DNA of 64,000 nt from Bacteroidia bacterium. GTDB lineage: Bacteria; Bacteroidota; Bacteroidia; M30B66. Shown piece after piece: positions 23,304-44,270 of this stretch (position 1 is its first letter; every line of letters starts with the position of its first letter). The notes below the pieces were generated by a model, which did not search any database, was not told where the DNA came from, and saw nothing but the letters and a program-made list of their open reading frames with translations. Where the stretch lies: the NCBI GenBank assembly GCA_018401705.1, contig JAGYKL010000013.1, forward strand, positions 1 through 64,000. Reading direction: 5' to 3'. The position numbers and the translations under genes were made by a program.

Positions 23304-24233
23304 CTAAGATTTATTGAATCGCAGATTTGATAAACTACTTAGAATATGGTTGTTGTCTATTATTAAGCCAGATGCACTCATTCCGATAAAAACCATGCTG
23401 CTCAGCATTTGAATAATTAATAATTCAACAGCGATATTCTGAAAGCATAAATTCTGCCAGGCAGGAATTAATAAAATGCTAAGATTAAATAATGAAATTA
23501 TTGTGAATTGAGCATTAATTATGGATTTAGACAGCTTAATTTTTGAAGCTGAATTGATCTTGATTTGTTCATTAAAATTCTTGATACTTTGCATTTCAAC
23601 ATTTGTAACGTACATTCTCTCTAATGCGATGTTAAATAGTAATGTGAAGCTTAATATTATAAAAAGTAAAATAAAACTCGTGCTTAAATGTGGTATTGAT
23701 TCATTAACAACTGAAATAGCCAATAAAGTTCCAGCATTAAAATAAATAAAGGCAAAATATATAATTCTGGAAATTGAGAATTCGCTAATCCCAACATGAG
23801 AAAGTTTCTCACTTTTTCTAAATACCTTAGTATTAAAAAGAGCTAAAGTGATAAATATTAATAGAATAAAAGTAAATATTGCCGAGAATCTTAGCTTTTC
23901 AGCTCTCTTATATTCCTCATAGGTAATGTCATCATTTACTGTTAAAGGCATTGGTAATGCCAACACAAGGGTGTCATCGTAAATTTCTTGCATTATTTCA
24001 GTTTCTCTTTTGTAAGAGTCTCTCATTATTTCTGAAATTGCCGGCAAAGTGCTATTTGCTTTCTCTGACTTTGAAGGATCAACAGATCCTAAAGCAACCA
24101 GGTCAATTGTGATTTTCTTGCCTTTAGAATTTGCTTGATTGTTTAATTCATCAAATGTCATTGAATTAGCTGAAACGCTAAATAGTGAAAATAATACATT
24201 CAATAAAACGATGGTAGTGAGGCTGGTTTTCAT
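23304..24233 (-). CDS. unknown membrane protein, paralogue A (IDLVALG family)
   Basis: I do not recognise the family. It has a signal-like N-terminus (1-22) and an extracytoplasmic stretch with IDLVALG (43-49), SEIMRDSYKR (67-76) and DITYEEY (102-108). About five transmembrane helices follow (116-134, 147-176, 184-203, 239-258, 266-291). The same three motifs and layout occur in the protein at 25911-26819, so the two are clear paralogues. Both have the same promoter architecture and an upstream ACGTG-type site. With signal peptide plus helices it should sit in the inner membrane. The nearby kinase/regulator pair suggests a signalling or stress role, which is inference only. Confidence 0.75.
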   Translation of the reverse strand: MKTSLTTIVLLNVLFSLFSVSANSMTFDELNNQANSKGKKITIDLVALGSVDPSKSEKANSTLPAISEIMRDSYKRETEIMQEIYDDTLVLALPMPLTVNDDITYEEYKRAEKLRFSAIFTFILLIFITLALFNTKVFRKSEKLSHVGISEFSISRIIYFAFIYFNAGTLLAISVVNESIPHLSTSFILLFIILSFTLLFNIALERMYVTNVEMQSIKNFNEQIKINSASKIKLSKSIINAQFTIISLFNLSILLIPAWQNLCFQNIAVELLIIQMLSSMVFIGMSASGLIIDNNHILSSLSNLRFNKS

Positions 24234-24273
24234 AATGGCTGATTTATTTAGCTGTTATATTAATTTCTTATGC

Positions 24274-24306
24274 CAAAGGTGCCATAAAGCAAAGAGCCAA
24301 AACAGG
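24274..24306 (-). promoter_or_regulatory. promoter of paralogue A
   Basis: Minus strand: CCTGTT (24301-24306), 19-base spacer, CACCTTTG (24274-24281, seven of eight to TAnnTTTG). Paralogue B has exactly the same two elements at the same spacing. Confidence 0.6.
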
Positions 24307-24349
24307 TTGTAAAGTGCAGTTAGATTCAGTATTAAGCCCATTTTACTAA

Positions 24350-24366
24350 GGGTGTTTTACACGTAA
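24350..24366 (-). promoter_or_regulatory. ACGTG-type operator candidate upstream of paralogue A
   Basis: Minus strand TTACGTGTAAAACACCC: half-site ACGTG, five bases, CACCC. The core TACGTGTAAAACACCC recurs exactly at 44055-44070. It lies 52 bases upstream of the CCTGTT element, one base different from paralogue B. Confidence 0.5.
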
Positions 24367-24472
24367 TAGAAAATGGTAATTATGCATTTATTAAATAACA
24401 GGCTTACGCACAGTGCTCTACAATGCCTTTTCGGGATAGACTTACTCAATCTTGTATCGTTTTTAGAATAGT

Positions 24473-24525
24473 TAAAAACAAGAAACCCCGGAAAGATGAG
24501 GAGGTCATTCATCTTATCCAGGGTT
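24473..24525 (-). terminator. intrinsic terminator, probably of paralogue B
   Basis: Minus strand: AACCCTGGATAAGATGA pairs, with small bulges, with TCATCTTTCCGGGGTT, followed by TCTTGTTTTT. If the IS at 24559-25894 is removed, this hairpin falls ~50 bases after the stop of the gene at 25911-26819, the usual place for its terminator. Confidence 0.65.
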
Positions 24526-24558
24526 AGCCTACTACAACTTCATCATTTATTCACACCT

Positions 24559-24579
24559 TCACACCTATTCAAGACGTTT
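24559..24579 (+). repeat. left terminal inverted repeat of the IS
   Basis: TCACACCTATTCAAGACGTT(T): matches the complement of the right end except at two positions. Confidence 0.85.
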
Positions 24580-24679
24580 AGATATTGAAAATAGTTTTAT
24601 TTGATGGTGTTTGCTCATCAAAATAACAGTTATTAAAATTAACTTTGTTGAAAAGCGAGAGCTGAGTTTCAGTTTTTAA

Positions 24680-25825
24680 TTTCTTTATCATCTAAAAAGG
24701 GTTCATTTGTTTCATTTTGAGGTCAATTTCACGAAATAGATTCAACTGGAATGTTACAACAGTTTGAGAGGTGCCATTTGTGTTCTGCCACTCTTTGAAG
24801 CGTCTTTAAAAGCAGTATGTGATTAGTGCTGGTCCAAATCTGTATCATCACCGCATTGATGCTTGTTCCTATGTAGAATGACTTGATTTTTAGGTGAGTT
24901 TGATTTCTTTAAAGAATGAATCTATATGTTCCATCGGCGTTTGTATAGTTCTGATATCGTTACGCGTCCAAGTGCAAAACGGTTTGTTAGTAGTTCAAGG
25001 TAATTTGCTGTTGTTCATCCCGTCCTGAACTATCTGAGCTTATTTGATATTTTGCCTTTGATGGACGCTAAACTTAAACCCTACAGTCATATTGCAGATC
25101 TGGATTTGGTTATATCGGATGGCTTCTTTTAGTTCTTCATCAAGGTCAAGTTTAATGTTCTCCTTGCCTCGTATAACGAAGAAAAACACCGCTCCATCTG
25201 TAAAGATCCGTTCAATTAAAATCAACGTAAGCCTCGGTCAGCTTAACGACAATAATGCTTCCGCTGGAAATTCAATATCATGAGCAGCAACTACATCATG
25301 CTTTTGCCATCGCTTAAATCAGCAAAACAGTGCATCCACAAAATCAAGTACTGTATGAAGTTTTATTGCTCCTTCTTTTCCGAAATAAAGCCCAATCGAA
25401 CACTCTAAGACATAGGTCAATCGTAGTTGAATCAAGAAGATGATTTTACGTTTAGGTGAAAGCTTCCGTTTGTTTTAAGGTTTCAAAATTGTCTGTACAA
25501 ACTAAAATACACGTTTGAAAGATTCCAGCTATGATGCTGATGGCTGGTATACAATGACATCGTCACATTAGAGACTTCTGTGTGATTAACGCCAGTAGCT
25601 GAGCATACCACATTACAAACATCATTGAGACTATTGGACTTTTTAAAACTGACAAAACACCATGGTCACAAAGTGAGACCAAGCATCATTGCCCTTGCTA
25701 TGCTTATTGGACTCAAACTTTTCTGCAAGTTTATTAAAAGAATTTCTATTGATTTTTTGGAATATCTGAGCAAATAATGTGATCTTCATGCCGGAGTTGG
25801 TTTTTGTTTTTGTGTGGTAACTCAA
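24680..25825 (-). pseudogene. IS4-family transposase remnant
   Basis: Many stops and frameshifts, but the family is readable in pieces. From ~25780 down there is a DUF4372-like N-terminus (LFAQIFQKINRNSFNKLAE, then DAWSHFVTMVFCQF). Around 25420 comes TTIDLC with the first catalytic Asp, at ~25240 the remnant of VVDRGY, and at ~25100 FFVIRGKENIKLDL. At ~24930 ELYKRRWNI is followed, one frame away, by SFFKEIK, the Y-(2)-R-(3)-E-(6)-K signature of IS4 transposases. It cannot be functional. Confidence 0.85.
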
Positions 25826-25873
25826 ACATACCAGATTTAATCTGGACCAACTCTTATTTTTTACTCTAATTTA

Positions 25874-25894
25874 AAACGTCTTGGACAGGTGTGA
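25874..25894 (-). repeat. right terminal inverted repeat of the IS
   Basis: Reads TCACACCTGTCCAAGACGTT(T) on the minus strand, 19 of 21 identical to the left end. Confidence 0.85.
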
Positions 25895-25910
25895 TATAAT
25901 TTAGATTTAA

Positions 25911-26819
25911 TTAATAATTGTTTTGATGTTTAAACTCTTGTCTTGAGAAAAATGCGGGTAAGAGATTTATCTCTAGTGAATAAGTAAGTAGGAGTATTAA
26001 ACTGCTAATCAATTGAATTGCAATTTGTTCATCAAATACCTTAAGCATTTGCATTTCACTCCAAGTAGGTACCATGAATACAGTCATATTGATTAATGAG
26101 ACTATTGGATATTGAATGTATTTGAGAATTTTATTATTTGAGATATTGGTTTGACTCAAGTGCATTCCTTCCTTTTTAGATTTGATGGAAATAAAATGGT
26201 TATCACCGTTATCATGCTTCTCAAGAAAGACATTAATCATGTATGTTAAAATGATGATTCCTAGTAGAACTATAGAGTTTAATGATAAACCAGGGAGATT
26301 ATGATTAACAATTAGACTGGAAATCAATGTTCCTATGAATAGGAAAACGGACACATATAGCACAATTCGTGAGATTGATAATTTAGCTGAATTATCGCTT
26401 TGTACTTTATTCGATTTCTTGAATAGGCTGCTATCATAAAGAGCAAGTAAACTGAAGATTAGTAGCAAGAGACAAAAAATTCCACAGAATTTTTTTCTTT
26501 GATTTGCTTGATATTCCTCATAAGTGATATCATTTGATGTTGTATTGACAGAAGCATTGCTCTCTTCGATTGATTCTGAAGTATTATCTGTAATTCTAAC
26601 ATATGTATCTCTCATCAGTTCAGAAACTGAAGGGCTGTTTGCTGCACTTTTGTCTAAGGAAAGGGGCAAAGCTCCAAGCGCAACTAAATCGATTGCAATA
26701 TTATGAGAATCGCTATCCAGGTTTTGCTTTAGTTGCGTGATACCTTTAACATTTAAACTGCTTATCGTCAGACTTAGTAGAATAACTAAAATGATGTTGT
26801 TGGTTAGATATGTTTTCAT
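25911..26819 (-). CDS. unknown membrane protein, paralogue B (IDLVALG family)
   Basis: 302 residues, unrecognised family. It shares with the 23304-24233 product the signal-like N-terminus, IDLVALG, SELMRDTYVR, NDITYEEY, an LFKKSNK loop after the first helix, and SISRI before the second. About five transmembrane helices. The extracytoplasmic part is Ser/Asn-rich between the MRDTY and DITYEEY motifs. It lies just downstream of the kinase/regulator operon and has its own promoter and ACGTG-type palindrome. Its natural 3' flank was interrupted by the IS. Confidence 0.75.
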   Translation of the reverse strand: MKTYLTNNIILVILLSLTISSLNVKGITQLKQNLDSDSHNIAIDLVALGALPLSLDKSAANSPSVSELMRDTYVRITDNTSESIEESNASVNTTSNDITYEEYQANQRKKFCGIFCLLLLIFSLLALYDSSLFKKSNKVQSDNSAKLSISRIVLYVSVFLFIGTLISSLIVNHNLPGLSLNSIVLLGIIILTYMINVFLEKHDNGDNHFISIKSKKEGMHLSQTNISNNKILKYIQYPIVSLINMTVFMVPTWSEMQMLKVFDEQIAIQLISSLILLLTYSLEINLLPAFFSRQEFKHQNNY

Positions 26820-26858
26820 GGCTATTTATTTGAAGATTATGTTTTGAATTTCTTTCTT

Positions 26859-26891
26859 CAAAGGTGAGCCATGTGGACTACCTACAACAGG
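26859..26891 (-). promoter_or_regulatory. promoter of paralogue B
   Basis: Minus strand CCTGTT (26886-26891), 19-base spacer, CACCTTTG (26859-26866). Identical elements and spacing to paralogue A. Confidence 0.6.
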
Positions 26892-26933
26892 TTATAAAAT
26901 GTAATTGGGGGGTATGAAAAGAATCAAATTGAA

Positions 26934-26952
26934 TACGTGCATTTACACGTAA
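26934..26952 (-). promoter_or_regulatory. ACGTG-N6-CACGT palindrome upstream of paralogue B
   Basis: Minus strand TTACGTGTAAATGCACGTA. It shares TTACGTGTAAA with the paralogue A site, at the same distance from the promoter within one base. Centred roughly 90 bases upstream of the predicted start, a plausible distal activator site. Confidence 0.55.
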
Positions 26953-27026
26953 AGTTGAATGTGAATTTGAACATATGATTATGTTCATGATTGATAATCA
27001 GCTGGTTGAAACGTTTTTTGTGAAGC

Positions 27027-27692
27027 TTACAACATGTCAAGAAGGTCGTTTCTTACAAGGAAAAGAACCAATCCGGTCTTTGATTTAATTTCAAACTTGT
27101 CAAATACAGATTCTCTATAGCCATCAACAGTTCTTCTGTGCACTCCCATCATAGAAGCTATTTGTTCATAGGTATATTCATCTTGATGGCAAACTAGTTT
27201 TAAGAATTCTCTCTCTCTATCAGTAAGCTGGCTTAAAATTGTTGCTCTTGGGTCTTTAGGTTGATTTTTATATACAGAGGTCAAAGCATCTGCAAGTAAG
27301 TCATTGTGATAGTAGCCTGTTTTAAAAATAGAGTCAAGGGCTTCTCGCAACACAGTGGCGGGAGAATTTTTTTGGATATAGCCGCGTGCCCCCAAACGAA
27401 ATAGTTGCACATGCTTTCCAGTTTCACTATTAAGCGTGAGAATTAAAACAGGGATTTCAATCTCCTTTTTATTCATTTCTTCAAGAACAACATCGCCATT
27501 CATTCCTGGCATTGAGAGATCTAGAATTATCAAGTCTGCTGAAACTCCTTTTTGCAGTGCGGCTAAAAGGTCAATGCCAGAATCAAATTCATATGTTACA
27601 GTGTATGGACCAAGTTTATCAATGAGTTCTCTTAAGCCGTTTCTTACGATTACGTGATCATCAACAAGTATTATAGATTTTTTATCTTTCAT
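27027..27692 (-). CDS. NarL/LuxR-type response regulator
   Basis: 221 residues. The receiver has the acidic pocket VDDH, phospho-acceptor D58 in LDLSMPG and K108 in YIQKNS. The C-terminal LuxR helix-turn-helix reads LTDREREFLKL...YTYEQIASMMGVHRRTVDGY. The ATG at 27692 is preferred to an upstream in-frame TTG. It lies seven bases after the kinase stop, so the two form one operon and surely one phosphorelay. Its targets may be the ACGTG-type palindromes nearby; that is inference. Confidence 0.93.
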   Translation of the reverse strand: MKDKKSIILVDDHVIVRNGLRELIDKLGPYTVTYEFDSGIDLLAALQKGVSADLIILDLSMPGMNGDVVLEEMNKKEIEIPVLILTLNSETGKHVQLFRLGARGYIQKNSPATVLREALDSIFKTGYYHNDLLADALTSVYKNQPKDPRATILSQLTDREREFLKLVCHQDEYTYEQIASMMGVHRRTVDGYRESVFDKFEIKSKTGLVLFLVRNDLLDML

Positions 27693-27699
27693 GTTAGGT

Positions 27700-28470
27700 T
27701 TATGCAAGGTGTAAAGTTACTGTAGTGCCTTTGTTTTCTTCTGATTTAATTGTTAGGTTTAGTTTTGCCAGGGCTGCTCTCTTCTTCATATTTTTTAAAC
27801 CATTTGCCTTTCCTGAATTAATCGTATCATCTAACGAGAACCCTTTCCCATTATCGGTAACTTGAAGCAGAAAATCAGGAGAATTACTTTTCACTGTTAA
27901 TTTAGTTGCTTCAGCATGCTTTATTGTATTATTTATGAGTTCCTGAAAGATTCTAAAACTCATTAGCATTTGATCCTTATCCATATTAGGATACTTAAAG
28001 GTGCCAGGTCTGTATTCTACATCCATGGTAGTAAATCCTGATAATCTATCTACTTCTTCGTTAATTGCATCCTGAAAGGTAAGACCACTCAAATAGTCCA
28101 TATTCATAGATCTACTCAATAACCTTAATTGTCCAGATGCCTGATCAAGTAACTCCTCAAAAGGCTTAAATGATGCAGCAACCTCTGGAGAATCAAGTTT
28201 TCGATTCTCGATTATTAACCGCATGTACGTAAGAGTATGACCAACATGATCGTGCAATTCACGAGATACGTGTGACATAAGTTGTTCTCGAACTTCAAGT
28301 TCTGCATTTCTCAATTCTTTCTCATATATAAGCTCTAATTGTGACATCTTCATTTCCTGACGAAGCCTTTGTCTGTTGGAGATAAAAATTGAAATAATAA
28401 CACTTGCAACCAGTAATAGAATTACTAGTGTTATTACAATTATACCAATATAGAGAGACTCATCATTCAT
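27700..28470 (-). CDS. NarX-type sensor histidine kinase (HisKA_3)
   Basis: 256 residues: one N-terminal transmembrane helix (~7-31), coiled coil, dimerisation/phosphoacceptor domain with H73 in SRELHDHVGHTL, then HATPase with FQELINNTIKHAE (N box), DNGKGF and GLKNMKKRA. There is no sensory domain of its own, so signal input probably comes from the membrane protein encoded just upstream, whose stop overlaps this start by eight bases (ATGAATGA). Confidence 0.93.
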   Translation of the reverse strand: MNDESLYIGIIVITLVILLLVASVIISIFISNRQRLRQEMKMSQLELIYEKELRNAELEVREQLMSHVSRELHDHVGHTLTYMRLIIENRKLDSPEVAASFKPFEELLDQASGQLRLLSRSMNMDYLSGLTFQDAINEEVDRLSGFTTMDVEYRPGTFKYPNMDKDQMLMSFRIFQELINNTIKHAEATKLTVKSNSPDFLLQVTDNGKGFSLDDTINSGKANGLKNMKKRAALAKLNLTIKSEENKGTTVTLHLA

Positions 28471-29098
28471 GGGCTATTGGCGAAAGTTTGTTCTTCCAAA
28501 CAACGATGAAAGCAATTGCTATTAATCCGTATCTAACATACATAAGCGATTTGATAATGTAGTCAAATAGTTCATTGGCCATATCTGTATTTTGTTCAAT
28601 TATCATTTCTCTTCCGATGAAGTATGGTGTTATACCTAAACAATAAATAACATGAGCCATAGCAATAATCATCAATGGATTTTTAGAGAATGATTTATTT
28701 ACTTCAGGATGTATAATATAAATAAGATTCAAACTGGAAATAAATATGAAGCTAACAATGATTAATTTATAATCAAGTTTAAATAAGTTATGTGTGCTTA
28801 AACTTATGATTGTGAATAAAGCATAAATAAGAATTGAGATTCTTATTCCCTTCTTTATTTTCTCTGATTGAAATGAAAAATATACAAGTCCGGATAATAA
28901 TAAGGTTTCAATGATATCATATATATTGTAAATAACCTCATTAGAGGTTCCCTGCTTTGAAAATTGATAGGCTATATAATCAGTAATTAAAGAAATAAAA
29001 ACTTGAAAAATCAGCAATCTATAAGCCCAATTAAGCCTTCCAAACATTGGAAGGCTTAATATTAAGACTATTAGCTGAGCGTATAGTTCTACAGGCAT
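28463..29098 (-). CDS. polytopic membrane protein, likely sensor partner of the kinase
   Basis: 211 residues from the ATG at 29098, with six or seven hydrophobic helices and no long loops. I know this only as a type often found before NarX-like kinases in Bacteroidota. The frame is open further upstream to 29248 and there encodes a cysteine motif (SQLCPTKCG), but that part resembles the tail of a neighbouring secreted protein, so I place the start at 29098. Eight-base overlap with the kinase implies tight co-translation. Confidence 0.75.
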   Translation of the reverse strand: MPVELYAQLIVLILSLPMFGRLNWAYRLLIFQVFISLITDYIAYQFSKQGTSNEVIYNIYDIIETLLLSGLVYFSFQSEKIKKGIRISILIYALFTIISLSTHNLFKLDYKLIIVSFIFISSLNLIYIIHPEVNKSFSKNPLMIIAMAHVIYCLGITPYFIGREMIIEQNTDMANELFDYIIKSLMYVRYGLIAIAFIVVWKNKLSPIAHE

Positions 29099-29168
29099 TA
29101 TATACTCTATAGAATTAATATTTATTGATAGTATATTTATCCATTCGTTTCTCTTAGCTTCTATTTTA

Positions 29169-29248
29169 CCGCATTTTGTTGGACAAAGCTGACTGAAATT
29201 GGCAGATAGAGATGGAAGTCCTCGGCAATTAATTATCTTTATTATCAT
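29169..29248 (-). pseudogene. fragment resembling the C-terminus of the 30189 gene
   Basis: Encodes LSANFSQLCPTKCGKI, against AANMSQLCPTKCGSI at the end of the protein at 30189-31085. The DNA is also alike (CCGCATTTTGTTGG at both places on the plus strand). Either a leftover 3' end of a duplicated gene or a shared short module; no start of its own is convincing. Confidence 0.4.
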
Positions 29249-29299
29249 AATTCATTTTTGGGTGATAGCGTGCTGAAAATAACGTGAGAATAATCAGGA

Positions 29300-30098
29300 T
29301 TATTTTTCAGTTTTTATTAATGCCGATGTCATATAAATATCATTTTCAATATGTGTTTTTATAAATGACTCTAATATATTAATTGGATACATTATTTTGA
29401 GTAGGAGGTATTTTATAAGGATCTTTATAATTTAATTTTTTTTTTTTACCGTTAATGGTAATGGAGCTCAAATAATCTTCCAATTGATTAAAAATATTTG
29501 GCTTTCCTTCATCGGTTTTTCAAATACATTTCAGTTCTGTCAAATTTATATAGTGGTTTGGTGAAATCTCTAACATTTAGACTAAAGTCAATAGCTTCAA
29601 ATATAACTGGAGAACTTTGAAGAATTGGATTTGATTTCAAAATAGTTGGTGCAAATAATATTCTATTTTTGGATCAAGTCGATTGGATTTATTTAGACCA
29701 AAATAGATAACTGAAGCAGAAATTCGTCTGTGGAATTGCATGAAAGGTTTCCATAAATATTTAAAAGACTTTGATTATTTATTTTTTAAAATGACCCATA
29801 ACAAAACTCTCACCATTACACTCAACATCATTCGAATTTAATAATCCCATCGACTTATGGCCTTGGATTCAGAATAAACTGGTATAATTAAATTCTATGC
29901 ATTCAATATCCTGATTGGAATCTGTGTCCAACTTTCACAAATAGCCTTCTCCTTCTTTAGAACTATTTTTTTCTTTAGATGGATTAGATTCCTGATTTTT
30001 AGTATCAATCTTTTCTCACTTCCATTGCAGTTTGTTGCAGAGCTTAATATTAATGAAATTAACATTACTGAAACTGTTTTAAGAACAATGTTTGTCAT
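29300..30098 (-). pseudogene. decayed gene for a probable exported protein
   Basis: Begins with a good signal-like start (MTNIVLKTVSVMLISLILSS, then ATNCNGSEK) and then breaks repeatedly. Continuous, protein-like pieces can be followed through at least five frame changes and two stops: KIDTKNQESNPSKEKN, YLWKPFMQFHRRISASVIYF, NRILFAPTILKSNPILQSS, FEAIDFSLNVRDFTKPLY, TDEGKPNIFNQLEDYLSS, and the end YPINILESFIKTHIEND ... LIKTEK with a stop at 29300. The original length was ~260 residues. I recognise no family. It is flanked by unknown genes of the same strand and looks like a once-functional part of this block. Confidence 0.7.
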
Positions 30099-30102
30099 AT
30101 TT

Positions 30103-30129
30103 ATTGGGTTTATTGGGTTTATTGGGTTT
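30103..30129. repeat. three tandem copies of ATTGGGTTT
   Basis: Exact nine-base tandem repeat, ending five bases before the start codon of the decayed gene, so it lies in that gene's leader. Confidence 0.85.
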
Positions 30130-30188
30130 AAAATTTAAAGTAAGTTTTTGATTTTCAAATATTTTACTCAATCAAGATTAATTTATTC

Positions 30189-31085
30189 TTAATTCTTTAT
30201 CCTGCATTTATCTTCAACAATGTTTACAATTATACTTCCGCATTTTGTTGGGCATAATTGTGACATGTTGGCTGCATTGCCCGAGAAGATTCCTTGTCCG
30301 GGAGGAGGCGGTTCTGATAGTGGAGGGAAAGTAGATATTGTGATGCAATGACGTAATGATCCTGTCTCAGTGCGTACGCCTGAGTTAAAATATAAAAAGG
30401 AGGCATTTCCATTATCTTTTACCAGGCTATGCACTACATTGGTTGGAAATAGAACCGAACCCGGATCACATCTTCCTTTATTTCTGCAATCAAGATCAAA
30501 GTTCCTTTCCCCAACTAATCTTCTGTCAATTTTAATATAAGACACGTAATTCATCCAGAATTGCATCGCTTCCAGTCTTTTGCTTTCATTTCCAATTATG
30601 TTAACAAGGTCTCCCTGATCATTAACTTCGTACAATGCTGTAGTGTTTCTGCCCATGAACGACTTAACATCCATTTCCGTCGGACTAACATCCATGTAAT
30701 AGTCACCACCACCAATTGCGATAGGTTCGCCAAGTGAGGCTTTCGTGAAGTAAAGTTTTATCTGTTTTTTGTCAATATCTAAACCATAAAATACTTTAAG
30801 TGCCGGCACATAACCTCCATCACAATCCTCAGTGAAAGTTGTTAAAATTTGAGATGAACGAACTTTGGTGTATTGAGTGCCGTTAAATTTTGACTCAACT
30901 TTGTCCTTTTCAATAGTAATATCTTTTGTGAATTTTGTCGACTGCGAATTCATATCTCTAACCAAAAGAAAGTGGTTGGATTGTTCGATTTGATATGGGC
31001 AATCCTCCTTGCTTTGTGCAAAGAGTCTGTTTTTACCAAGATTGGGTAAAAGAATAATAGAGATTAGAAGTAGTAGATTTTTCAT
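30189..31085 (-). CDS. secreted protein of unknown family with C-terminal CPTKCG motif
   Basis: About 298 residues from the ATG at 31085, which starts the signal peptide MKNLLLLISIILLPNLGKN. The alternative ATG at 31109 lies inside the likely -7 box (31107-31114). Paired cysteines (EDCPYQ, EDCDGG, LDCRNKGRCDPG) suggest a disulfide-containing exported domain. A proline-rich linker (PPLSEPPPPGQG) leads to SQLCPTKCG and a short tail. No T9SS sorting domain and no known enzyme motif. Upstream is a TTCACGTG...CACGTGAA palindrome, tying it to the membrane paralogues. Confidence 0.72.
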   Translation of the reverse strand: MKNLLLLISIILLPNLGKNRLFAQSKEDCPYQIEQSNHFLLVRDMNSQSTKFTKDITIEKDKVESKFNGTQYTKVRSSQILTTFTEDCDGGYVPALKVFYGLDIDKKQIKLYFTKASLGEPIAIGGGDYYMDVSPTEMDVKSFMGRNTTALYEVNDQGDLVNIIGNESKRLEAMQFWMNYVSYIKIDRRLVGERNFDLDCRNKGRCDPGSVLFPTNVVHSLVKDNGNASFLYFNSGVRTETGSLRHCITISTFPPLSEPPPPGQGIFSGNAANMSQLCPTKCGSIIVNIVEDKCRIKN

Positions 31086-31106
31086 AATAAAGGTTAGATT
31101 TATACG

Positions 31107-31114
31107 CAAAGATT
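31107..31114 (-). promoter_or_regulatory. candidate -7 box AATCTTTG
   Basis: Seven of eight to TAnnTTTG, giving a leader of about 15 bases for the gene starting at 31085. Confidence 0.4.
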
Positions 31115-31145
31115 GGTGTAATATATAAATTATTTCAGCAGTTTA

Positions 31146-31168
31146 TTCACGTGGCATCAACACGTGAA
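31146..31168 (-). promoter_or_regulatory. TTCACGTG-N7-CACGTGAA inverted repeat
   Basis: Perfect eight-base arms with a seven-base spacer. The right arm continues on the minus strand as GGGGGTGTTTTTCACGTG, matching the GGGTGTTTTACACGT form found at 24350 and 44055. Sits about 30 bases upstream of the -7 box. Confidence 0.55.
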
Positions 31169-31280
31169 AAACACCCCCTTTGCAAATCATCGAAATAGTT
31201 ATGAAAAACTCGAAGTATACACTTTAAGCCGCAATTGTCATCAAATCAATTGTTTGTTTTGGCAAATGAAAGGCTCGAAG

Positions 31281-32756: not shown

Positions 32757-35700
32757 ATGCCAAAGAGTATTGCCCTCTTATTAGCTTTTATTTTATCTAT
32801 TGCTTCGCTTTTCTCTCAGCAGATAAACTGGATTGAAATAGATAGAGAAGGAGGACCTTTGAATCAGCCTGTTTACTCAATTAAACAAGATTCAAATGAT
32901 TTTATTTGGCTTGGTACAGGCTCTGGCTTGTATAGATTTGATGGAAAGAGCTATAAACGCTGGAAGGGTAATTTGAACTCTAGAAAATTTCCTGGTATTA
33001 CTGTGAGTAAAATGGAAATTGTGGGGGATTTTCTTTGGATGCTAGTCGACAGATATTTACTCGTTAAATTCAATACCAAAACTTTTGATTATTCTATTGT
33101 TTACAAAACAGATTTAAATATTGAGGGTCGATTTGAGCAAATGTGTTTGGATGATAGGGGAAATATCATCGTTTCAACAAAACTGAATCGAATAATATGG
33201 CTTAATACTATCTCAGATCAAGTTATAAGAAGGCATGACTTTATTAAAAATAGATATTTAATACAAAGTATGCATTGGCAAAACAATTTATTGGTGCTAG
33301 GTACAAGAAGTAAAAGCATTTGCCTTATAAATGAAAGTGGTAAAATCTGGATGATGGAATCAAGTAAGGTGTTTCCGTATCCAGGATATAGTGTTGAACA
33401 TATTATTAGATATAATGATTCTACTGCATTATTCTGCTCTTGGGATAATGCAATACATCTCTTCCATTTAAATAATTACAGAACAACTTCGTTTGTTTTT
33501 GACAGTCATCAAGAAATAAAATTTGATGCTGAAGAGGGCACGTATTTGTGCAGAATAAGCGATACTGAATTTTGGCTAGGTACTAAAAGCTCAGGGATAT
33601 ACTCCTTCGATTCTAAGTTTAGTGCTTTCAATAAGATATATGGTGGGAATTTTATCGGAAATAAAGTTTTTTGCATTTTTAAGGACAATCAAGGAAGAGT
33701 TTGGGTTGGAACTGATGAAGGAGTAAATCTATTTGATCCAAATTACAATTACTTTAAAACATCATACCTCAAATCTGATATTGGTGCAGGAGAAATTGAT
33801 ATTTACGATCTAAAGTATAGGGGCGATACTTTTCTTTTAGGGACCAATTTAGGGTTACTATTAACCGAAGAAAACGGGACTATATTAAAGAATTACTCAA
33901 CTAATATGAGTGAAGGAGATCCATCAGTCTATTCTTTAATCTGGGATTCAATCAATAATGTGTATTTTGGAAATTCAAAATCATTATATAAAGTTAATCT
34001 TAAAACAGATGGAATTAGTTCGGCATTTCCTAAATACAAACACAATATAGAAAGTACTGCTTATAATCCTTTGAATCTTCTTTCTACCAAAGTATCTTTA
34101 GCTATCAAAACATCTTTTAATGATTATGAGAAGATTTTCATTGCTTGCCCAGGCTACGGCGTATTTTCATATTCAATTTCTGATGGAGATTATTTTGCTG
34201 GTGCTGCTTTTCATGAATCAGAATATGGAGCTTTTGTAAAGTCTATTTATTTTGATAAGAATCATAAAATGTGGATTGCAGATGAAGAAAAAGGTATTTA
34301 TGAAGATTTAGAAGCAAAAATAGACTCCCAATCATATGCGGAATTAAACAGACTTGGCGATACTATTGGATACGCAAAGGGAGAAGTTAGGTTCTTTGGT
34401 GCAAAACGAAGATGGCATAATGATGGAATATCAGGCCTTACAAGTAATTTCATTAGTTTTATTTTTCCAAGAGATGATGGCACATTTTGGGTTGGTACAA
34501 AAGGAAGTGGTTTGTTTTATTTTAATCCGAGACTTAAAAAGGCATTTTTTAATATAACAAGCAAAATCGAAAACCCCGTCTCCGTTTACGAAGATAAGAA
34601 GCATAGACTTTGGGTTATTGATGATGGTCAGCTGTTTATGTTAAATTTAAAAAAGGGCTTATATCATTCTTTTGGCAAAGAATATGGATTACCCGCCTTT
34701 GATATTCATTCTCAGTTTTATGTAATCGATTCAACATCTGTTGCAATAACTGCCGGAAATAAAATTATACGATTTAATCCTTGGGAAACCGAAGTAAATA
34801 AGAGTAAATATAAATTTCATTTAGTAGGTCTAAATACAATTGATAATAATTATGACTCCTTAATACTAAAGTCGCAAATTGAATTTAATGAATCTGAGAA
34901 TGGGATTTCTTTTACTTGTGCTGTTTTGGACTATTCGGATGTAGGCGAAATTGTTTATTCTTATCTTTTAGATGGATATAATAACCAATGGATTAATAAT
35001 GGATCAAACAGCACAATTACGTTTTCTAAATTGCCACCAGGGAACTATAATCTAAAAATCAAAGCTCAAACTGAATTTGGATTCTATTTATCCGATATCT
35101 TCGAGTTTCCTGTTGTTGTAAAGCCAAATTGGTATAATACATTGGTTTTTAAAATCTCATTGCTGCTATTGCTCTTTGTTATTTTATTTGTAGGTTATCG
35201 AATTAGACTAATGCAGATATTAAGATTACAAAAGATACGGGACAAAATTGCAAGAGATTTGCATGATGATATAGGAAGTGCCTTAGGTGCAATTAATTTA
35301 TATACAAATGCGGCACAAGCAAACCTAAAGAAGGGCAATGGTATTAAAGCTTCTGAAATTCTTGAAAAGATAGGTTCTAATTCAAGAGAAATGTCTCAGC
35401 ACATGAGCGATATTATCTGGGCTGTGAATCCTAATAATGATGAATTGGATCATCTTATAAATAGAATTGAAAAATATTTTAAGGAAGTATTAGCTGATTC
35501 TCATATTAATTTCAAAATGACCTTTGATTCAAAAGTCGCAGCTATTACTTTGGAAATGGCCGAGCGCAGAAATATTTATCTCATTCTTAAAGAATGTCTG
35601 CATAACTCAATTAAATACTCAGAATGTGAAGAAATACAAATTGATTTTAAATTTCAAGATAATAAATTGCATTTGCGATTTCATGATAATGGAAGAGGAT

Positions 35701-35834
35701 TTAATCAAGATATTATAAATCCTTTTAATGGCAATGGCTTCAGAAATATGAAAATAAGAGCCGAAGAAATAAATGGTAAACTAATACTCAATTCTGTAAT
35801 AAATCAAGGAACAACAATTGAGTTAATTCTATAG
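32757..35834 (+). CDS. two-component sensor kinase with extracytoplasmic propeller (Reg_prop/Y_Y_Y)
   Basis: 1025 residues. Signal peptide (~1-20), then ligand-sensing beta-propellers with repeated LGTGSGLYRFDG, VWVGTDEGVNLFDP and FWVGTKGSGLFYFNP units, a Y_Y_Y-like Ig domain (ending ~residue 785), one transmembrane helix (~798-815), then HisKA_3 with IARDLHDDIGSALGA and an HATPase with LKECLHNSIKYSE and HDNGRGF. Topology resembles the one-protein sensors of hybrid systems but lacks the fused receiver and AraC domain. Its partner regulator starts six bases downstream. The signal is unknown. Confidence 0.9.
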   Translation: MPKSIALLLAFILSIASLFSQQINWIEIDREGGPLNQPVYSIKQDSNDFIWLGTGSGLYRFDGKSYKRWKGNLNSRKFPGITVSKMEIVGDFLWMLVDRYLLVKFNTKTFDYSIVYKTDLNIEGRFEQMCLDDRGNIIVSTKLNRIIWLNTISDQVIRRHDFIKNRYLIQSMHWQNNLLVLGTRSKSICLINESGKIWMMESSKVFPYPGYSVEHIIRYNDSTALFCSWDNAIHLFHLNNYRTTSFVFDSHQEIKFDAEEGTYLCRISDTEFWLGTKSSGIYSFDSKFSAFNKIYGGNFIGNKVFCIFKDNQGRVWVGTDEGVNLFDPNYNYFKTSYLKSDIGAGEIDIYDLKYRGDTFLLGTNLGLLLTEENGTILKNYSTNMSEGDPSVYSLIWDSINNVYFGNSKSLYKVNLKTDGISSAFPKYKHNIESTAYNPLNLLSTKVSLAIKTSFNDYEKIFIACPGYGVFSYSISDGDYFAGAAFHESEYGAFVKSIYFDKNHKMWIADEEKGIYEDLEAKIDSQSYAELNRLGDTIGYAKGEVRFFGAKRRWHNDGISGLTSNFISFIFPRDDGTFWVGTKGSGLFYFNPRLKKAFFNITSKIENPVSVYEDKKHRLWVIDDGQLFMLNLKKGLYHSFGKEYGLPAFDIHSQFYVIDSTSVAITAGNKIIRFNPWETEVNKSKYKFHLVGLNTIDNNYDSLILKSQIEFNESENGISFTCAVLDYSDVGEIVYSYLLDGYNNQWINNGSNSTITFSKLPPGNYNLKIKAQTEFGFYLSDIFEFPVVVKPNWYNTLVFKISLLLLLFVILFVGYRIRLMQILRLQKIRDKIARDLHDDIGSALGAINLYTNAAQANLKKGNGIKASEILEKIGSNSREMSQHMSDIIWAVNPNNDELDHLINRIEKYFKEVLADSHINFKMTFDSKVAAITLEMAERRNIYLILKECLHNSIKYSECEEIQIDFKFQDNKLHLRFHDNGRGFNQDIINPFNGNGFRNMKIRAEEINGKLILNSVINQGTTIELIL

Positions 35835-35839
35835 ATATT

Positions 35840-36478
35840 ATGAATACAATTAAAGTTATGCTTTTTGATGATAATTCAAAAATTCTTGATTCAATGAGTA
35901 TGCTATTAGATACTCATGAAGGCTTTGATGTTTGTGGAGCCTATTCTAATGTCTTGAATTGCCTAGAAGAGGTGAAAATAAAAAAACCTGATATTGTTTT
36001 AATGGATATTGATATGCCAGGACTTAATGGTCTTGAAGGTTTAAAGCTCCTCACAAAGAAATACCCTGATCTTCCTGTATTAATGCTCACTTCATTTGAT
36101 GATGAGCAAAAAGTATATTCTGCCTTAAGAAATGGTGCCAGAGGATATTTACTTAAAAGTATGCCTCCAGATACTATTGTGAATTCTATAAAAGAAGCGT
36201 ATGCCGGAGGGGTTCCAATGTCAGATAGAGTCGCAAACAAGGTCCTTGATTATTTTCGAAAAGCAAGTAGAGGAAATGTTGATTATCATCTCACAGAGAG
36301 AGAATTAGATGTTTTAAGACTACTTGTTAATGGATTGAGTTATCAGCAAGTTGCAGATGAATTATCAATAAGTTATGAAACGGTGAGAACTCACATCAAG
36401 CACTTATACGCAAAACTGGGAGTAGCAACCTTAGCTGAAGCGGTCGTTAAAGCAGTGAAGGAAGATCTTATTGATTAG
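35840..36478 (+). CDS. NarL/LuxR-type response regulator
   Basis: 212 residues: receiver with FDDN pocket, phospho-acceptor Asp in LMDIDMPG, Lys in YLLKSM, then LuxR helix-turn-helix (LTERELDVLRLLVNG, then YQQVADELSISYETVRTHI). Six bases after the sensor kinase, so one operon. A TATCCCC/GGGGATA inverted repeat lies ten bases after its stop, before the next gene's promoter, and is a good candidate for its binding site. Confidence 0.94.
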   Translation: MNTIKVMLFDDNSKILDSMSMLLDTHEGFDVCGAYSNVLNCLEEVKIKKPDIVLMDIDMPGLNGLEGLKLLTKKYPDLPVLMLTSFDDEQKVYSALRNGARGYLLKSMPPDTIVNSIKEAYAGGVPMSDRVANKVLDYFRKASRGNVDYHLTERELDVLRLLVNGLSYQQVADELSISYETVRTHIKHLYAKLGVATLAEAVVKAVKEDLID

Positions 36479-43861: not shown

Positions 43862-44023
43862 CAAAAACCGGGATTTTACACTGTAAAATCCCGGTTGAAG
43901 TTTATCCGAAAAGGGTATCGGATAAAATGGTCCGTATTGAGCAGCCGGACCGTCTTAATTGTGTACACAACCACCTCTTAAGACATGTCATTGATAGAGT
44001 TAGGCGCTTTTTTACAATGACAT
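43862..44023 (-). ncRNA. candidate small structured RNA ending in an intrinsic terminator
   Basis: Read 5' to 3' on the minus strand, five consecutive perfect stems: ATGTCATTG/CAATGACAT (44023-43985), GTCTTAA/TTAAGAC (43984-43952), GGTCCG/CGGACC (43951-43929), TTTATCCGA/TCGGATAAA (43926-43901), and AACCGGGATTTTA/TAAAATCCCGGTT (43896-43866). The last stem runs into TTTTTGTTT, a strong terminator. A near-consensus -7 box (GATATTTG, 44034-44027) ends just before the first stem. Length ~160 nt. I could not match it to tmRNA, RNase P, SRP or 6S RNA. A leader or attenuator for the vWA gene is an alternative. Confidence 0.55.
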
Positions 44024-44026
44024 GAA

Positions 44027-44034
44027 CAAATATC
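44027..44034 (-). promoter_or_regulatory. candidate -7 box of the small RNA
   Basis: GATATTTG, seven of eight to TAnnTTTG, with the first hairpin starting about four bases later. Confidence 0.45.
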
Positions 44035-44054
44035 TTTAAGCATTTTTATTTCTC

Positions 44055-44070
44055 TACGTGTAAAACACCC
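44055..44070 (+). promoter_or_regulatory. ACGTG-type site upstream of the candidate small RNA
   Basis: TACGTGTAAAACACCC: 16 bases identical to the minus strand at 24350-24365, 19 kb away. It overlaps the expected -33 region of the small-RNA promoter. Confidence 0.5.
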
Positions 44071-44270
44071 TCCCGGGGGAGGTGAAAATTCCCATAAAAG
44101 TAATTTTCGTATCTAATGACCTGACATGTAGTTGTTTGCAATTGTTGTCAAATCAAAGACTCATTATGCCAAATGAATATTGGGGATTCAACTCATAATT
44201 TAGTTGCAACACAATCACCGTTAAAGAAAACGACAAATTCATGAAGCAACATTATAAATGAATAGTAGGA

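Follow-up and report, generated by a model that had tools for sequence, protein, structure and literature searches.

A recurrent two-component module of Bacteroidota with a seven-helix membrane protein, a CPxxC protein and a candidate operator site

A signalling block of a Bacteroidia bacterium (GenBank assembly GCA_018401705.1, contig JAGYKL010000013.1, positions 23,304 to 31,168) was analysed in a window that comprises positions 1 to 64,000 of the contig. The block encodes a secreted protein with a Cys-Pro-x-x-Cys motif (CPxxC protein), a seven-helix membrane protein, a HisKA_3 sensor kinase, a NarL-type response regulator and two membrane paralogues that share an IDLVALG motif (Table 1). 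With a probability of roughly three in four, we read it as a representative of a two-component module that is widespread in Bacteroidota, is autoregulated and controls a very small local regulon. The source genome (G000) is a 3.74-Mb draft, and its relatives are Bacteroidota metagenome genomes. A preliminary description of this DNA had placed all genes of the block on one strand and had called the two membrane proteins paralogous; the open reading frames (ORFs) were confirmed on the minus strand at the places it gave, and the paralogues align with an E of 2e-39 and 33% identity.

Table 1. Genes, promoter boxes and candidate operator sites in the window (aa, amino acids; TM, transmembrane; a dot means no strand assigned)
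Feature	Position	Strand	Remarks
CPxxC-family secreted protein (298 aa, signal peptide, C-terminal AANMSQLCPTKCG)	30189..31085	-	First gene of the module
Decayed second CPxxC copy	29153..30117	-	Frameshifts and stops; putative lipoprotein start MTNIVLKTVSVMLISLILSSATNC near 30117
Seven-helix membrane protein (211 aa)	28463..29098	-	Alignment and AlphaFold2 model
Sensor kinase	27700..28470	-	One TM helix, HisKA_3 (RELHDHVGHTL), HATPase_c
NarL/LuxR-type response regulator	27027..27707	-	Probable ATG at 27692
IDLVALG membrane paralogue 1	25911..26819	-	Signal-like helix, segment of ~85 residues with IDLVALG, then ~4-5 TM helices
IDLVALG membrane paralogue 2	23304..24233	-	Same architecture as paralogue 1
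Decayed insertion sequence between both paralogues	24559..25894	.	Inverted ends, 20/25 matches
-7-like box CACCTTTG of paralogue 1	26859..26866	-	84 bp from ACGTG start
-7-like box CACCTTTG of paralogue 2	24274..24281	-	Spacing 83 bp
Candidate operator 1 GGGGTGTTTTTCACGT	31162..31177	-	Before CPxxC gene; score 26.7, top window match
Candidate operator 2 AGGGTGTTTTACACGT	24349..24364	+	Before paralogue 2, orientation opposite to gene; score 20.1
Orphan candidate operator 3 AGGGTGTTTTACACGT	44056..44071	-	Score 20.1; 540 bp upstream of 1307-aa surface-protein gene (43517)
Palindrome ACGTGCATTTACACGT	26935..26950	.	Before paralogue 1; partial consensus match

Two gene starts were revised. The CPxxC gene was called as ORF 30189-31109, and its likely ATG lies at 31085. 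The ORF called for the membrane gene (28463-29248) extends too far upstream: the CPxxC tail of the decayed gene (SQLCPTKCG) falls within its first 50 residues. The true start of the membrane gene was placed near 29098, as judged by the homologue at locus L012. The decayed copy lies between the first gene and the remainder of the operon; a profile match to CPxxC was obtained at 29153-29392 (E 1.3e-4, 3 stops), and a three-frame reading agrees with it. In the insertion sequence remnant no open frame of more than 75 residues and no intact transposase frame was found. The decayed gene and the insertion sequence had been taken as signs of accessory, fast-changing DNA; both are present, but the block is not purely local and accessory, the core module being widespread. 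The secreted protein, the seven-helix protein and both paralogues gave no Pfam or NCBIfam match above cut-off, in agreement with the earlier statement that the unknown proteins could not be placed in any family.

The kinase is a protein of 256 residues that lacks a sensor region and has a single TM helix at its N-terminus. It matches HisKA_3 (PF07730, 28.8 bits, cut-off 24, E 1.8e-6) and HATPase_c (PF02518, 42.2 bits, cut-off 26.4, E 1.2e-10), and the ELHD motif with the phospho-acceptor histidine is kept in all five aligned kinases. The regulator consists of a receiver (Response_reg, PF00072, 79 bits, E 3e-22) and a helix-turn-helix (HTH) domain (GerE, PF00196, 32 bits, cut-off 23.5, E 8e-8). 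Its phospho-acceptor aspartate and most HTH positions are invariant in five homologues, and it is 81% identical to the L012 copy.

L012 belongs to G003, a genome of the same family and another genus, which matches JAIXYK010000037.1, a metagenome-assembled genome of a pond Bacteroidetes. There the gene of a secreted-type protein is followed by those of the membrane protein, the kinase, the regulator and an IDLVALG protein, with no decayed copy between them. The four-gene order on one strand, CPxxC protein, seven-helix membrane protein, HisKA_3 kinase and NarL-type regulator, was also read in G006, G008, G049, G121, G354, G196 and G213, and in G227 after overlap resolution. The regulator alignment, used to scan GTDB genomes, yielded 80 loci. 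In ~70 of them a membrane protein of ~220 residues precedes the kinase, and a CPxxC gene stands ahead of that protein in 37 by an automatic rule and in 5 more by eye (LCPP or CPxxC tails). CPxxC homologues head the operon in L012, L014, L015, L016, L085, L086, L088 and L090. Judged from gene order, the secreted CPxxC gene is the operon head in the relatives, hence its putative site is the operon's site, and the earlier statement that the operon lacks the site was misleading. The module appears to be phylum-wide in Bacteroidota and neither described nor named; a search confined to openly accessible literature turned up nothing on either the site or the module. One record labelled as the gammaproteobacterium Glaciecola amylolytica (L140, CP034120.1) carries a module member nested among Bacteroidota regulators in the tree, which reflects either horizontal transfer or a mislabelled record. 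An ORF of 817 residues before the kinase of L141 was considered as a fusion of module parts and rejected, as it reads as a peptidase-like protein.

The CPxxC family was named after the Cys-Pro-x-x-Cys motif near the C-terminus, which is kept in all 19 aligned first-gene proteins, although these are otherwise poorly conserved (13-30% identity to the window copy). When the aligned N-termini were read by eye, about half showed no clear export signal, and the others had either a lipoprotein signal or a plain signal peptide. At L016 (genome G049) the membrane protein and one CPxxC domain form a single fusion protein. Ahead of the CPxxC gene of G003 (L012, 5425-5680) stands a very short ORF that resembles a lipoprotein gene and has an operator of its own; it is apparently a remnant or a small paralogue, parallel to the decayed copy of the window. 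At L208 (G083:C1:787056) an exact site lies ~196 bp before the gene of a 140-residue protein ending in FDIGNLWP, which resembles the YDFGGLQP ends of Chitinophaga first-gene proteins and probably marks another module member.

The candidate operator has the consensus (A/G)GGGT(G/A)TTTTTC(A/C)CG(G/T) with the core GGGT(G/A)TTTTTC(A/C)CG. The preliminary description had instead proposed an ACGTG palindrome upstream of all three unknown genes. The palindrome ACGTG-N(5-7)-CACGT occurs twice in the 3.74-Mb genome, at 26935 and 31149 (0.01 expected in the window), and is not due to chance because both occurrences sit in this block. It thus stands before two of the three genes, whereas paralogue 2 has one ACGTG half inside its AGGGTGTTTTACACGT. 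The copy before the CPxxC gene, ACGTGGCATCAACACGT (31149-31165), overlaps operator 1. As a conserved element the palindrome was rejected, since it was not found as such in G003; it is the longer, asymmetric site that is conserved. Exact GGTGTTTTWCACGT occurs three times in the genome, each time inside the window. A broad regulon was rejected for exact sites on the basis of these three in the genome, and matches with two mismatches numbered 45 against 59 in a reversed control.

Comparison with other genomes supports this site. G003 carries GGGTGTTTTTCACG twice before its CPxxC gene and GGGGGTTTTACACGT, on the other strand, before its IDLVALG gene. Exact GGGTGTTTTWCACG was found seven times in 14 genomes, five times before module or paralogue genes and once each as an orphan in the window and in G003. 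The 80 regulator loci (1.02 Mb) contain 15 exact copies of GGGTRTTTTTCACG, their reversed control none. Of these copies 14 are found 2.1-3.3 kb upstream of the regulator, which corresponds to the operon start. In 395 genomes of the class the same string gave 38 matches, mostly inside unrelated genes, with control counts of the same order; therefore the enrichment is at the module and not in the genomes at large. A matrix built only from six window and G003 sites had its best match at the operon start in 44 of 69 other loci against 8.1 expected (naive binomial 2e-24, a probability that is too small, related loci not being independent). The reciprocal matrix, built from sites of other genomes only, scored 26.7 in the window at 31162, where the GGGTRTTTTTCMCG site precedes the first gene, 20.1 at both 24349 and 44056, and 6.9 for the fourth match, while the maxima of simulated windows averaged 10.1 and reached 20.6 at the highest (60 trials). 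In some Chitinophaga members (L193) the site is a perfect inverted repeat, ACGGG-N7-CCCGT. Immediately ahead of the invariant RTVDGYR, the regulator has a basic residue (Arg or Lys) in 13 of 19 members with a CACG site and in 0 of 16 with a CCCG site (Fisher 1.8e-5, a figure inflated by descent, which confounds the correlation). Mapped on the regulator tree, the site type must have changed at least five times, which is more than a single split. We take the correlation as suggestive; the regulator is predicted to bind the conserved site.

The site also stands before membrane paralogues in G000, G003, G006 and L125. Judged by hydrophobicity, the paralogues begin with a hydrophobic segment, which is followed by a polar part containing IDLVALG and by 4-5 further TM helices. 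Strong homologues were found in only two of the 395 genomes, G000 and G003, and paralogue 1 has an imperfect site, so one may ask whether these genes are chance neighbours and not outputs of the system. This is unlikely, because both genomes place them directly after the regulator, and hence beside the two-component system as the check proposed earlier had asked, although the outer flanks differ. In addition, remote relatives follow the regulator in L125 as a tandem pair with a site before each, and a remote pair with the site in G006 probably also adjoins the module, as it lies at the start of a contig that agrees at its other end with the order of neighbours in G008. The distance from the site or half-site to a CAnnTTTG box, which we take to be like the Bacteroidota -7 element, also appears fixed, with 83 and 84 bp for the paralogues and 85 bp in L012; it is ~75 bp in G006, about one helical turn less. 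Weak matches in G124, G140, G177, G191, G232, G326 and G368 were short or low-scoring and were not counted as relatives, and no module was found around those of G177 and G232. From this distribution the membrane paralogues are judged to be lineage-restricted, unlike the widespread core module, and our best guess is that they are the envelope output of the pathway.

As to what acts at the site, a global factor or an extracytoplasmic function (ECF) sigma factor could drive the operon from outside while the module regulator acts elsewhere. The pairing of regulator and site comes from comparison, and both the 44.06-kb site and an orphan site of G003 (L101) are intergenic and far from module genes, which would suit such a factor. 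However, exact sites are at background level genome-wide and confined to the window in their own genome, unlike those of a global regulator, and the covariation of regulator residue and operator base points to the module regulator. The latter is moreover the one DNA-binding protein common to the site-bearing loci, because of which autoregulation is the simplest reading, and we consider an outside regulator quite improbable. That the site is an RNA element, such as a leader or a riboswitch-like structure, would agree with its position in many members, 60-120 bp upstream of where translation of the first gene begins. But it lies upstream of the -7-like box and is thus probably not transcribed, and its opposite orientation before paralogue 2 and before the G003 paralogue is tolerated by DNA operators and not by RNA elements, which makes this explanation very hard to sustain.

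Several points, besides the dependence among loci and the confounding by descent mentioned above, weigh against an autoregulated module with a local regulon. About one third of the loci have no recognisable site at the expected position, and the paralogue 1 palindrome, which follows only part of the consensus, is absent from the eight best matrix matches in the window. The relation of the first genes of Chitinophaga and Flavobacterium members to CPxxC was undetectable (hhalign probability below 1%), and the large share of CPxxC proteins without an obvious export signal would weaken a simple role as extracytoplasmic ligand. The regulator-site pairing and the control of transcripts are drawn from sequence comparison. 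The earlier proposal that the regulator controls the unknown genes through a shared site has nevertheless gained strong comparative support, with the site recurring before the operon across the phylum and before the paralogues; the palindrome itself was not upheld as that site, and binding of the regulator is still predicted.

In the mechanism that we propose for the autoregulated module, the seven-helix protein and its CPxxC partner, fused in one relative, would sense a signal at the envelope and switch the kinase, itself devoid of a sensor domain. Phosphate would then pass from the kinase to the regulator. Once bound to the site, the regulator would control the operon that encodes it and, in this lineage, the neighbouring IDLVALG membrane proteins as well, which would serve the envelope as output or feedback proteins. 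A bolder version is conceivable but speculative: the module may represent a phylum-wide, undescribed class of receptors, in which a small GPCR-like (G protein-coupled receptor-like) seven-helix protein with a CPxxC partner detects a ligand or a redox state on behalf of a kinase that lacks a sensor, a dedicated operator co-evolves with the DNA-contacting residue of the regulator, and lineage-specific membrane proteins serve as outputs.

Some observations concern the orphan sites and the surroundings of the block. Between operator 3 and the surface-protein gene a hairpin with a T-run, terminator-like, lies near 43890. The operator lies in a long intergenic region, and the DNA that follows it (~43870-44050), with this hairpin and a possible ORF of 21 codons (MLKDICSCHCKKAPNSINDMS), could be a small RNA or small-protein gene. 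The DNA upstream of operator 3 (TTGATTTGAYRACAATTGC) resembles that upstream of the CPxxC gene. The G003 orphan (G003:C35:106044) also lies in a long intergenic region, ~460 bp before the gene of a secreted protein of tetratricopeptide repeat (TPR)-like type. Adjoining the block at 32757-36478, a propeller-type sensor kinase (1025 aa) and its own LuxR-type regulator are encoded divergently, and no operator copy was found at that locus.

Two-component signalling as such is well known, but this variant recurs over much of Bacteroidota, and two of the four module proteins have no Pfam match above cut-off. With a DNA site and predicted targets defined, the unknown signalling block becomes a testable circuit, and the correlation between regulator residue and operator base offers a direct test of specificity. 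Cultured carriers among the matches include Chitinophaga, Fluviicola chungangensis, Flavipsychrobacter stenotrophus and Taibaiella soli.

The module was compared with known proteins and systems. The CPxxC model (predicted local distance difference test, pLDDT, 81.4) contains two similar alpha/beta repeats, and DNA sliding clamps (PCNA, 9-1-1) make up its six best VIA rows. These matches (Z 4.2-5.6, below 8; root mean square deviation 3.7-5.4 A) are too weak to interpret or to use for a fold assignment; Foldseek gave no match at E 0.001, several CPxxC members are exported lipoproteins, and the likeness of the model most likely reflects only a shared arrangement. The AlphaFold2 model of the membrane protein (pLDDT 91.4) shares its seven helices and overall arrangement with GPCR/rhodopsin-like receptors, the best VIA match being a designed GPCR-like fold (Z 13.0, 3.9 A over 193 residues), a Z that helical bundles commonly reach without kinship; there is no sequence relation, and Foldseek gave no significant match (best E 0.19). 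With the NarX/NarL and UhpB/UhpA-type systems the module shares the HisKA_3 kinase and NarL-type regulator domains and their order. In the Uhp system UhpC is the membrane partner of the kinase, and the window module also has a membrane partner gene for its kinase. However, scores against the equivalogs are far below the cut-offs (UhpB 78/408 bits, NarL 91.9/250, NarX 41.6/578), and the module kinase, with its single TM helix, lacks a sensor domain; the periplasmic nitrate-sensing domain and HAMP of NarX are absent from it. In contrast to the Nar and Uhp systems, the membrane partner here is a small seven-helix protein without a Pfam match, to which a CPxxC protein and a distinct site are added.

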